From a virus, in the IMG/VR virus record IMGVR_UViG_3300042695_000441, positions 1 to 34,499 of that record: DNA of 34,499 nt. One strand, 5' to 3'. Under the pieces are notes generated by a model, which was given only the letters and a program-made list of their open reading frames with translations, had not been told where the DNA came from and did not search any database. Positions 1-31,843 of this stretch are shown piece by piece. The translations under genes were made by a program, and so were the position numbers. The first letter of the stretch is position 1. Each line of letters starts with the position of its first letter.

Positions 1-127
1 CGACAAACTTCCTATAAGTGCGTATGTATGGAAACCAGTAACATATATGTTACCTTTGGATTATTTGCAGATATGGGATTGCTTGTCTTACGACATGGCG
101 GTAATTGAGAAATCAAACCTGCGTGGG
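1..127. repeat. Terminal overlap: identical to 34373-34499
   Basis: The first 127 bases are repeated without mismatch at the end of the window (34373-34499). The reading frame of the gene at the right end runs directly into the frame open at the left end, so the contig closes into a circle of about 34,372 bp. A length of exactly 127 is a usual maximum k-mer of short-read assemblers, so this is more likely an assembly overlap of a circular or circularly permuted genome than a biological terminal repeat. Confidence 0.95.
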
Positions 128-469
128 TTAAAGGTTAAATACTTTGGTAAGGATAAGCAGTTTCACTTTGGTAACTACTTGTTTACGATAGACTTTGCCG
201 ACCCTGACAGTAATCGTTTGGATACAACCTTTAGCGAAGGGGTTGAGGAACACAAGTCGTACAACTTTATTAAGCTAGATAACGGTCAATTTGCTTGCCA
301 GCCTAACAACCGCTGCCTTTGGTACGATGTTTCGCTTGTGCCAGCTGTGCTAAAAACGCCCGACTTTAAGATACCGACTGAGATTTACAGCGTTGAGAAC
401 CATGCTAAATGGTCAGCAAAAGACGAATGGTTTTATAACTTTGAAGAATTAAGGAAAAATAATGAATGA
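2..469 (+). CDS. Conserved phage protein of unknown function (3' part of the gene spanning the contig joint)
   Basis: This is the C-terminal 155 residues of a gene whose start is at 34197 at the other end of the window; joined across the circle it encodes about 214 aa. The internal ATG at 47 is not the start, because the frame is open back to base 2 and continues upstream in the overlap copy. The protein is soluble-looking, rich in aromatic residues (Trp, Tyr, Phe), with no membrane segment and no catalytic motif I recognise. It lies in the rightward early operon between a small membrane protein and the nuclease genes, and its stop overlaps the start of the next small gene at 462. A role in recombination or host takeover is possible from position only. 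Confidence 0.85.
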   Translation, partial: DKLPISAYVWKPVTYMLPLDYLQIWDCLSYDMAVIEKSNLRGLKVKYFGKDKQFHFGNYLFTIDFADPDSNRLDTTFSEGVEEHKSYNFIKLDNGQFACQPNNRCLWYDVSLVPAVLKTPDFKIPTEIYSVENHAKWSAKDEWFYNFEELRKNNE

Positions 470-28519: not shown

Positions 28520-28783
28520 TTACTTGGGTAAACCGCTTGCAATTCGGTTGGCTTTAAACAAGTAGTCATTGCGAATTGTAGACGGTGGCACAAAACCAAA
28601 AGCCTTCCATGTCTTTAAAACATCGCTACCTGATGAATACTTAAAAGTGCTTTTTGGTGCTATTGCAAATTTGTCATTTTCCATAGATTGCTCCACATTA
28701 ATAGTAAATGAACCATCATTTTCCCTGTAAATCCCATAAAAAGGAATTGGATGGTCTAACTCAGATAATGTAAAAATTGCCAT
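28520..28783 (-). CDS. Small protein of unknown function, 87 aa
   Basis: Perfect AGGAGG before the ATG at 28783. Beta-rich start (IFTLSELDHPIPFYGIYREN), no membrane segment, basic C-terminus. Last gene of the leftward block and directly abutting the endolysin stop with no spacer between the two convergent genes. No homologous family recognised. Confidence 0.75.
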   Translation of the reverse strand: MAIFTLSELDHPIPFYGIYRENDGSFTINVEQSMENDKFAIAPKSTFKYSSGSDVLKTWKAFGFVPPSTIRNDYLFKANRIASGLPK

Positions 28784-28791
28784 ATTTCCTC

Positions 28792-29130
28792 CTAAACAGT
28801 TGATTTTTCAATAAAACGATTATTTGCTTGGTTAGTACGCCAAATATCAACTCTTAACTGAGCGCCAATAAGTTGAAATTTCAGCTTTTCTTCTACTTCT
28901 ATTGCTTCTTTTAAACCTTTTAACAACTCCTGATATTCAGTCCTTGCGTAGGCATCACGCTCTTGTGCTGCCATTGTTTCTACGCCTACCATAAACGCTT
29001 CTTGCATAAGTAGGGCTTTCTTTGACTTTCTAAACTCCTCTAGGTATACCCTTTCTGCTTTCGCTTTGGCAAATAATCCTGAGTTTTTAAGTAAAAAATC
29101 TACTGCTTTGTTTGGGTCAATATCTTCCAT
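28792..29130 (-). CDS. Conserved helical phage protein, 112 aa
   Basis: ATG 29130 has AAGGAG 5 bases upstream (GTG at 29133 is too close). Helical with KAERVYLEEFRKSKKALLMQ and AAQERDAYARTEYQELLKGL and a final WRTNQANNRF; I recognise this as a widespread phage family found beside replication or recombination genes, without known function. Rich in charged residues, likely a coiled coil. Lies between the Mom-like gene and the last gene of the block. Confidence 0.75.
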   Translation of the reverse strand: MEDIDPNKAVDFLLKNSGLFAKAKAERVYLEEFRKSKKALLMQEAFMVGVETMAAQERDAYARTEYQELLKGLKEAIEVEEKLKFQLIGAQLRVDIWRTNQANNRFIEKSTV

Positions 29131-29139
29131 CACTTCTCC

Positions 29140-29796
29140 TTATCCGAACAACAATCCTTGGGTTTCTACCTTATCGCCTGAGTCGTATTTCTGCGAATCA
29201 CCTTTAGGGTAGGGTTCTACTGCGTATTTCAATAAAGTATTCATGGTTTTCTTTTGGCGCTTATCCCCATGAAAATAGATGTATCTATGCTTTCTACTGC
29301 GCTCCGTATAATAAAAATCATCTCCGTACTTTTCCTTAATAGATTCCAAGGTCATACCATCTGATAGGGTCTTAGAGTGTTTATGTTCTAAACCCTTGAC
29401 AGTCCAATCCACTCGGTTAGCAGAAAGCCCTGTATAGAGGAAATTGGTAGCTTGATAGACATACCCTACATGACCCTTTCCAGTATCAGCATAGGACACT
29501 ACTATGGTCGGTTTTGGCAGTAATTTTATGGAGTTAGCCACTAGAAAACTAGCCTGATTCTTAGTGTTATCCATCAAACAAACCCTGTTTAGTTCCAAAA
29601 CCTTATCTGAGTATTCTTTGCCACAAATCCCCATACATAGGCTTGGACTAGCTGGTATGCCATAAGTGCAAACGCCAACCAACTGGTTGTCCTCATAAAG
29701 ACCAAAGGCAAACATAATCTGCGGAATCCGCTTGGCATAATGCTTATTTAGCAACCAAGGGTAACTTTCCTCATTTTTGATGGGTAGGACTAGCAC
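29140..29796 (-). CDS. mom-like: Mom-like adenine hypermodification enzyme, 218 aa
   Basis: Pattern of the phage Mu Mom family, a GNAT-related enzyme that converts adenine in DNA to N6-methylcarbamoyl-adenine and so blocks host restriction: GVCTYGIPASPSLCMGICGK, VLELNRVCLMDNTKNQASFL, VSYADTGKGHVGYVYQATNF followed by LYTG, then RKHRYIYFHGDK (168-179) and EPYPKG (194-199). Starts GTG at 29796, overlapping the helicase TAG by a base, with GGAG upstream. Mu needs the Com protein to translate mom; no com is visible here. Substrate and modification are inferred from family. Confidence 0.85.
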   Translation of the reverse strand: MLVLPIKNEESYPWLLNKHYAKRIPQIMFAFGLYEDNQLVGVCTYGIPASPSLCMGICGKEYSDKVLELNRVCLMDNTKNQASFLVANSIKLLPKPTIVVSYADTGKGHVGYVYQATNFLYTGLSANRVDWTVKGLEHKHSKTLSDGMTLESIKEKYGDDFYYTERSRKHRYIYFHGDKRQKKTMNTLLKYAVEPYPKGDSQKYDSGDKVETQGLLFG

Positions 29797-30704
29797 TACA
29801 TCTCCAAAAAGTTAGTGATGCCCATGCCATATTCTTCAGTAAATAGTTGGCTACGCCTGTCATACCAAAAGCCTAAAGTACCTTCCCATTCGCCATTTCT
29901 TTGCTTGGCACACACTAAAAAGGTATCAGGCTTGGTATTGTCAGGAAGCATATTGACTTCTGTTTCCTTTTCTTTTTTGCGATTTCTTGCAATTAGGAAC
30001 ACATTGTCTACAAGGTCGGTAATGATTCCTGACCCTTTAATGTCCTTTTTCTCTGCAATCCTATCGCCTTCCCCTGATTTTCTAAGGTGGTGGACTAGGT
30101 GAATATGAAGTTGGGTTTCTTTGGCTACATCACATAGGGCATCTACAAAGTCTTTTTGTCCGTTGTAGTCATCTTCTCCTCTTACGCACTTCATCATAGA
30201 GTCAATAATTAGGTGCTGAATACCCAATTCTTTAGCAGCGTACCGACACAGCGCAACGGCCTCCCAAGGCTCTAAACGACCAACATGGTCATACAGGTAT
30301 GCCCTATCTATTTTCCAAGCTGAAAAGGCCTCTATATCGCTTCTAAGGGGCATTGGTTTGCCAGTAAACTGTCTTGTCATACGAGCAATGGTTTTATAGG
30401 GCTGCATTTCTAGACTTGCAGTAAGTACTTTTTTGTCCTGAGCAAGTAACCCTAATTTCAGTTGGCCTAAAAGCATTGACTTACCTGAACCGTTTTCACC
30501 AGCCCAAATACTGACCTCAGACTTTCTTAGCCCGATAAGCTGGTCTGTCTTTTTAAAAGGCAGTTTGTCACCGTCTATGCCGTATTGCCGAGTCTCAAAG
30601 TACTCGATTACCTCATCCTCATACTCCGACTTTTCGCCAACACGATTGCGTATGTTCATGTTTTCAGCATAGGCAGATAAATCAACATGGTTGGTTATTT
30701 GCAA
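29796..30704 (-). CDS. DnaB-type replicative helicase (helicase domain only), 302 aa
   Basis: RecA-like ATPase: Walker A GENGSGKS (69-76), catalytic Glu in SLEM (97-100), Walker B LIIDSMM (165-171), and HLVHHLRK (202-209), the DnaB/T7 gp4 motif H3 region. The N-terminal DnaB domain and any primase domain are missing, so it starts from a short linker; length suits T7-like helicase cores. TTG at 30704 with AAGGAGA about 7 bases upstream is the start (an in-frame ATG lies at residue 16). Probably loaded by the DUF1376 protein encoded two genes upstream; primase must be from the host. Confidence 0.88.
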   Translation of the reverse strand: MQITNHVDLSAYAENMNIRNRVGEKSEYEDEVIEYFETRQYGIDGDKLPFKKTDQLIGLRKSEVSIWAGENGSGKSMLLGQLKLGLLAQDKKVLTASLEMQPYKTIARMTRQFTGKPMPLRSDIEAFSAWKIDRAYLYDHVGRLEPWEAVALCRYAAKELGIQHLIIDSMMKCVRGEDDYNGQKDFVDALCDVAKETQLHIHLVHHLRKSGEGDRIAEKKDIKGSGIITDLVDNVFLIARNRKKEKETEVNMLPDNTKPDTFLVCAKQRNGEWEGTLGFWYDRRSQLFTEEYGMGITNFLEM

Positions 30705-30982
30705 AATATCTCTCCTTGTGAATCCATAGCAAGCAAAAAGCTAGGTTTTGCATTAATTATCTCTGCATACCACTTGGCGAATACCTCATCCTTACCGCTT
30801 TTATGGATAAGCTGTACCCGTTTTCCTTGCAGAATTGCCATGTCGTTAGGCTTAGGCCTTGAGTTTTGGGTATACACCATCGGTATATCGCCTTGGTCTT
30901 TACCATCAAACCAAGATGGATTCTTGCCAACAACAACGATTACATCCTTTGTTTCTTCAGTAATTGAAAATTGACCAATCAT
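30695..30982 (-). CDS. Small protein between replication genes, 95 aa
   Basis: ATGA overlap with the DUF1376 gene and 10-base overlap with the helicase show tight translational coupling. Beta-strand-rich (DVIVVVGKNPSWFDGKDQGD, IPMVYTQNSRPKPNDMAILQ) with no membrane segment or known motif. Possibly a helicase-loading or replication accessory protein by position; function unknown. Confidence 0.75.
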   Translation of the reverse strand: MIGQFSITEETKDVIVVVGKNPSWFDGKDQGDIPMVYTQNSRPKPNDMAILQGKRVQLIHKSGKDEVFAKWYAEIINAKPSFLLAMDSQGEIFCK

Positions 30983-31644
30983 ATAAATTTCACTTTCTCC
31001 ACTTGTTGAACAGCACTTGTCTTTTGGTTACGAATCCAATTACGCCAGGTTGCAGTCCAATCCAACTTAACTCCCTTAGAACCAGCAACAGATACCCAAT
31101 AATCCCTAAATCCATCAAAGACCACAGAAGGGTTTAAGTCACTACGCTCTTTCCTGCAAAACAAAACCCATTCTTCAGGTATTGCAATCAAGTCAAATCT
31201 AGTACCCTTGGTAGCTTTAGCTACACCAATACTGGTTAATGGTTTATGGTTAGTGGTTAGGGTTATTTGTGGGTTATTTTTGAAAACCGTTTGGGTTATT
31301 TGTGGGTTATTGTCTAAGTCATTGATTTTCTTAGGCCTTCCACCGAGTTTTCCTACTTTCTGGTTAATTTCTGCCTTGTGATGGTACTTTTGTATCTCAT
31401 CATCACACCTTAAATGATGCCAACCATCTTCTTGCAAAACAAAAAACTCTTGTAGCACTAACCCAACGGTTTCCTTTTGAGAACCCAAGCGTAACCGTCT
31501 GATAACCGACTGGGTTTCCAATGGGATAGGGCTTTCTGTATCGTAGTAAAAGTTGATTAGCTTGAAATACACAGCTTCTTCCTCAAGACTAAGATGGCTA
31601 GTAGCTAAGTGCCAATCTGCTATGTTGAACTTGTAATAGTGCAT
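30979..31644 (-). CDS. Replication initiator, DUF1376 / YdaU type, 221 aa
   Basis: N-terminus HYYKFNIADWHLATSHLSLE EEAVYFKLINFYYDTE SPIP is the DUF1376 (YdaU) domain of phage replication proteins, a winged-helix-like domain often fused to replisome-organiser domains. A linker with duplicated NNPQIT (about 112-128) follows; it is encoded by iteron-like DNA. The C-terminal part (IPEEWVLFCRKERSDLNPSV, VFDGFRDYWVSVAGSKG, DWTATWRNWI) is the typical replisome organiser end. AAAGGA precedes the ATG. It should bind the origin and load the helicase. Confidence 0.85.
   Translation of the reverse strand: MHYYKFNIADWHLATSHLSLEEEAVYFKLINFYYDTESPIPLETQSVIRRLRLGSQKETVGLVLQEFFVLQEDGWHHLRCDDEIQKYHHKAEINQKVGKLGGRPKKINDLDNNPQITQTVFKNNPQITLTTNHKPLTSIGVAKATKGTRFDLIAIPEEWVLFCRKERSDLNPSVVFDGFRDYWVSVAGSKGVKLDWTATWRNWIRNQKTSAVQQVEKVKFI
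31234..31311. repeat. Iteron-like GGTTA repeats in the DUF1376 gene (candidate replication origin)
   Basis: Seven GGTTA units plus one GGTTTA (31234, 31241, 31248, 31255, 31261, 31272, 31294, 31305) in 78 bp, with 7-bp, then 11-bp/22-bp spacing, close to helical turns. A 19-bp unit GGGTTATTTGTGGGTTATT occurs exactly at 31260-31278 and 31293-31311, 33 bp apart. An initiator gene that carries its own origin iterons is the arrangement of phage lambda O. Coding with two NNPQIT repeats may be secondary. Confidence 0.55.
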
Positions 31645-31645
31645 A

Positions 31646-31843
31646 TCAGTCCTTTTTAAATAGGTCTGGTCGTAGCTGTTCTCTTGTTAAACGAAGCTCT
31701 GTAAGCTGCTCAATTTTTGATAAGTATTTCAATGGAATCTTCTGAATCCCCCATAAATACACAGTTCCAGGCTTCAAATCTAGCTTTTCAGCCAAATCCT
31801 TTAAGCTACCAAATTCAATCTTTAATAAATCCATCGGGTTCAT
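31646..31843 (-). CDS. Cro/YdaS-like HTH regulator, 65 aa
   Basis: LKIEFGSLKDLAEKLDLKPG TVYLWGIQKIPLKYLSKIEQ and the end TREQLRPDLF are the Cro/YdaS-type pattern: FGS--DLAE-L helix, turn, TVYLWG recognition helix and LRPDLF end. AAGGAG upstream of the ATG at 31843. First gene of the leftward replication operon and adjacent to the divergent control region, so it probably regulates itself and the rightward early promoter, as Cro does. No CI-type repressor was found. Confidence 0.87.
   Translation of the reverse strand: MNPMDLLKIEFGSLKDLAEKLDLKPGTVYLWGIQKIPLKYLSKIEQLTELRLTREQLRPDLFKKD

Follow-up and report, generated by a model that had tools for sequence, protein, structure and literature searches.

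A Com-less Mom-family gene in a phage replication operon, at a putative exchangeable DNA-modification slot

In phage Mu, the toxic protein Mom is restrained by Dam, C and Com, and to our knowledge the regulation of Mom is known almost only from that phage. A mom-like gene in a 34,499-base virus record from IMG/VR (taken whole and henceforth called the window) raises the question of whether it encodes a true Mom, and how it could be expressed and what it could do outside the Mu setting. A sequence-only reading had proposed that the gene is translated independently of Com within a replication operon, and that its product gives the phage DNA methylcarbamoyl-adenine or a related modification and resistance to restriction. 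The gene turned out to be a functional and unexceptional representative of the known Mom family that sits in an unusual and informative position.

We confirmed that the open reading frame at 29140-29796 (-) encodes a true Mom-family protein. All four sequence blocks that had been taken as marks of the family were found in its 218-aa product, and the database matches were beyond chance: Pfam Mom (PF25680) matched with 136.3 bits against a cut-off of 27.1 (E=1.4e-39) over profile positions 4-202 of 202, i.e., the entire domain; PHROG 1384 (‘Mom-like DNA modification protein’) matched at E=2.9e-58; and the sole convincing match in a PDB sequence search was 8bv8, the structure of Mu Mom (E=2e-11). 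The comparison of a predicted structure with Mu Mom, which the sequence-only reading had suggested as a check, agreed with this assignment. Specifically, with an AlphaFold2 model as query (pLDDT 87, pTM 0.80), 8bv8 ranked first both in Foldseek (3.7e-11; next GNATs at about 4e-4) and in VIA-align (Z 19.1 over 175 residues; next 12.8). The GNAT fold is common to many protein N-acetyltransferases, and the product could in principle be an acetyltransferase whose substrate is a protein, a tRNA or a small molecule instead of DNA; we regard this as very unlikely, given the wide margin by which Mu Mom outscores every GNAT in the structural comparison and given that the other large genes found at this genomic position (see below) are mostly DNA modification enzymes.

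Although identity to Mu Mom is only about 26-30%, an alignment of 55 Moms, Mu-like ones included, contained 22 invariant columns. S83 aligned to Mu S124, the residue altered in the inactive mutant (S124A) of 8bv8, with serine in 55 of 55 sequences, and H19, R71 and Y114 corresponded to Mu H58, R111 and Y159. Relatives of the protein are present in 275 phage records. The called start and length are supported by relatives, the majority being 217-219 aa long with the start codon at the equivalent place. Compared with the closest relatives, dN/dS was 0.010-0.029 at a dS of about 0.4, indicating strong purifying selection, and the gene therefore works. Nothing beyond its sporadic presence would suggest that the gene has decayed or is a functionless passenger, and with such dN/dS values and full-length frames in nearly all relatives this explanation can practically be dismissed.

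The gene is part of a run of seven consecutive minus-strand genes, from a YdaS-like regulator to orf87, with junctions of -10 to +8 bases (Table 1). The replication-operon setting described earlier was borne out; both a helicase and a DUF1376/primosomal gene lie in the same run. Equally visible were the GTG start, the GGAG located 5 nt ahead of it and the overlap with the upstream stop codon: the helicase TAG (29798-29796) and the mom GTG (29796-29794) share one base (GGAGATGTAGTG). Given this location, the DNA could be modified while it is being copied, and not late as in Mu.

Table 1. Features of the mom-containing operon in the window (coordinates in window positions).
Feature	Coordinates	Strand	Details
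YdaS/Cro-like regulator, operon's first gene	31646..31843	-	PF15943 E=1.2e-12
DUF1376 / primosomal-like replication gene	30979..31644	-	PF07120 E=3.2e-25, phrog_3992 E=4.3e-42
orf95, same operon	30695..30982	-	no family match
DnaB-like replicative helicase, left slot wall, upstream of mom	29796..30704	-	PF03796 E=6.5e-12, phrog_239 E=3.9e-56
mom translation start region	29794..29806	-	GGAG, 5-nt spacer, GTG on helicase TAG
mom-like gene	29140..29796	-	218 aa, GTG start, TAA stop, S83 = Mu Mom S124
orf113, right slot wall	28792..29133	-	common in phages without Mom
orf87, end of minus-strand gene run	28520..28783	-	

That no Com partner is visible held up. The Com profile (PF10122) had no match in the record at E<=10, a CxxC..LL..CxxC frame was found on neither strand, and the record has no zinc-finger com overlapping the mom start in the manner of a Mu-type com-mom operon. 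The same profile detected Com in Mu, our positive control, and gave no match in the 31 sampled Mom records other than Mu. A motif search of the sequence directly preceding mom covered 249 loci and detected Com in 49 (the pattern missed Com in at least one further locus, L200), and every sampled Com row in the tree fell inside the Pseudomonadota/Mu-like clade. Com is a speciality of the Mu-like clade, and Moms usually come without it. Its absence, the norm in all sampled Mom clades except the Mu-like one, thus loses weight as a distinctive argument.

How, then, might mom be translated? The GTG start, which had been offered as a sign of Com independence, is uninformative because GUG is the start codon of Mu mom as well (PMC6483171), and we discarded it. 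As for the overlap with the upstream gene, mom overlaps the preceding frame by exactly 1 or 4 bases in 71 of 98 window-clade loci and in 15 of 21 unrelated upstream gene clusters (counted with Mu left out). This recurrence with diverse upstream genes suggests translational coupling, and the pattern favours either such coupling or plain Com-free initiation. The more specific proposal of coupling to the helicase stop stands only in part: the one-base overlap is there in the window, but the link to a helicase is limited to few phages (8 of 84 loci) and was ruled out as a general feature. Com-independent expression of the window mom nevertheless appears well supported by the Com-free clades and the recurrent stop-start overlaps; translation would proceed from the gene's own GGAG and through coupling to termination at the helicase stop. 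No GATC that could serve Dam-methylation control was found upstream of mom, the record-wide count being 0.

We also considered an inhibitory hairpin like that of Mu. The predicted RNA fold places the start codon in a stem containing both SD and GTG (unpaired probability 0.03; Mu 0.00), so access to it in the single strand may be limited. The hairpin was, however, neither significant (z=-1.6, with 16 of 200 shuffles folding as well) nor conserved: L027, L036 and L050, relatives that also have mom linked to a helicase, did not show the stem. A predicted paired start codon would also fit a scenario in which Com has been replaced by another trans-acting translational activator, such as a small protein that escaped recognition or the adjacent orf113, which was found behind Mom in 21 of the loci examined. 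Yet only 4 of 80 orf113 loci have Mom; occurring so often in relatives that lack Mom, orf113 is no dedicated Mom partner and was excluded as a dedicated replacement of Com. With the hairpin not conserved either, a substitute activator seems to us distinctly improbable.

DNA comparisons with many relatives gave matches limited to the mom gene itself. Retrieving relatives without Mom by an orf113 search, we found the empty site: in 13 loci the helicase stop abuts the orf113 start in one junction (TAA/ATG or TAA/GTG), and in three more the gap between them is within 20 bases. In other relatives the slot is filled by C5-cytosine methyltransferases (PF00145) of two kinds (L251 and L258; L275, L284 and others), by a phrog_757 DNA methyltransferase (L290, L291) or by a TET-associated glycosyltransferase (L261; PF20691, E=6.5e-43). 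A further occupant beside orf113, a 338-aa protein (L252:980-1993, L253-L255:977-1990), had no Pfam or PHROG match and a structure model too poor to use (pLDDT 39); we treat it as a candidate DNA modification enzyme. Separately, we observed that a second open frame in the +1 register, L275:1062-1982, covers almost the whole of the m5C methyltransferase gene L275:1058-2011. The second frame, of 233-307 aa and with a phrog_1008 match (E=6e-31), may form a fully overlapping gene pair with it, and likewise overlapped are the genes in L256, L276, L278, L280, L284, L285, L287, L289, L304, L347 and L348.

A similar alternation was found in two further replication-gene contexts, where the cargo lies directly behind the replication gene, mostly joined to it by ATGA. 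Here phrog_757, C5 and N4/N6 (PF01555) methyltransferases alternate with Mom, and the cargoes include a transglycosylase-like protein (phrog_887) that we infer to be DpdA-like; DpdA modifies phage DNA (PMC6884629). Behind replication genes where other phages have Mom we also found ABC-ATPase/GNAT fusions (phrog_11143; L369:1403-2485, L451:1699-2778), a combination predicted to modify DNA bases by another acyl modification (PMC7824862). The presence of such a predicted modifier in equivalent slots, together with the breadth of the Mom family and the low identity to Mu Mom, gives some weight to the view that the window protein is a Mom-fold DNA modifier with a different acyl group or sequence preference, whose product is not methylcarbamoyl-adenine. 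We consider this possible but doubtful, as this clade and Mu agree at all 22 invariant positions, among them the serine whose mutation inactivates the enzyme in 8bv8. As the sequence-only reading proposed, the modification may be methylcarbamoyl-adenine, and the phage DNA may resist restriction.

Among 31 non-redundant large slot genes, 21 were DNA methyltransferases and 2 were Mom. The methyltransferase share of the non-Mom cargo (21 of 29) compares with at least about 11 among the matches listed for 100 other genes of these loci (Fisher p=3e-10), and assuming a hypothetical background of 25 of 100 still gives p=5e-6. Because the slots were chosen for the occurrence of Mom and not for methyltransferases, this test is not circular. 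From these gene arrangements, Mom appears to be a cassette in an exchangeable DNA-modification slot between replication gene and orf113, a reading that is new here. Its exchange with other DNA-modification enzymes strongly supports a DNA-modification role and, as the slot is shared with them, modification against restriction is very likely what the window Mom does.

The window itself shows marked avoidance of palindromes. The zero count of GATC contrasts with about 69 expected under a first-order Markov model (P(0) about 1e-30), and GATC is also at 0 in the near relatives L002-L004; CGCG is absent from the record, ACGT occurs 3 times against 75 expected, and six-base palindromes number 215 against 566 expected (0.38 of expectation). 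Relaxed palindrome avoidance, a conceivable footprint of Mom protection, was not seen: the observed-to-expected ratio of six-base palindromes is about 0.4 in Mom phages, as strong an avoidance as in relatives without Mom. Since the two groups are alike, the avoidance marks a long-standing pressure on the lineage and is not a footprint of Mom.

As a whole, we consider the following explanation probable: a GNAT-fold Mom, made without Com from a replication operon, would act on adenines of the phage genome, modifying them and thereby hiding the DNA from host restriction enzymes, the gene being a mobile cassette that fills an exchangeable slot between replication gene and orf113. Extending this beyond the window, we lean, if only slightly, towards the idea that a replication gene in small freshwater phages is followed by a dedicated plug-in slot, where DNA-protection enzymes of different chemistry interchange and where Mom works early without Com. 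The cargo would then comprise Mom, at least two families of cytosine methyltransferases, N4/N6 methyltransferases, a DpdA-like transglycosylase, the ABC-ATPase/GNAT fusion and the TET-associated glycosyltransferase. If so, with cargo mostly joined stop to start to the upstream gene, modification would be made together with the replication machinery. The slot would also be a simple route to further DNA modification enzymes, with uncharacterised occupants (e.g., the 338-aa protein of L252-L255) as candidates, while the large Com-free clade, with its mom genes in replication operons, lends itself to studying alternative ways of controlling Mom and might supply an enzyme with which the unsettled methylcarbamoyl chemistry is easier to solve.

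The window Mom belongs to a freshwater viral clade (79-99% identity) with no isolated member in the phage collection searched. A megablast search against phages gave no match, and a host search found no close cellular relative (best 58%). The terminase is closest to that of Rhodoferax phage P26218 (46%), which does no more than hint at a betaproteobacterial host living in freshwater. We made three further observations. Window positions 47-469 carry an auxiliary metabolic gene that matches the PHROG ferredoxin family (E=5.3e-51); in L009 and L010, mom is directly preceded by another Mom-family gene, whose diverged product has 175 aa (PF25680, E=3.4e-15), the tandem genes being joined by an ATGA overlap; and in L028, L031, L033, L034 and L037 a GNAT acetyltransferase gene (L028:914-1498) separates mom from the helicase.

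Compared with Mu, the window Mom shares the fold and the 22 invariant residues, including S124/S83, of 8bv8, and both genes start with GUG and overlap an upstream reading frame. By contrast, Mu has com whereas the window record has none; Mu mom belongs to a late operon and the window mom to a replication operon; and Mu mom overlaps com by about 50 bases, the window mom its helicase by 1 base. Mu Mom is toxic when produced early or in excess (PMC4461284, PMC12707154), with which a presumably early operon for the window mom sits awkwardly. Outside Mu, the Moms of Listeria, Proteus, Staphylococcus and Roseobacter phages (PF25680 / PHROG 1384) belong to the same family, are likewise without Com in the records examined, and are roughly 40-46% identical to the window Mom at their closest. 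The Mom domains of jumbo phages are also members outside Mu, typically fused to endonuclease domains (PMC7824862), whereas the window Mom is a stand-alone gene. Finally, lactococcal 936 phages acquired orphan methyltransferases at insertion hotspots and, like the phages studied here, have variable DNA modification genes, in their case in packaging and replication regions and with protection from endonucleases (PMC4190342); while the alternatives in 936 phages are methyltransferases, here Mom, several kinds of methyltransferase and a glycosyltransferase occupy one slot.
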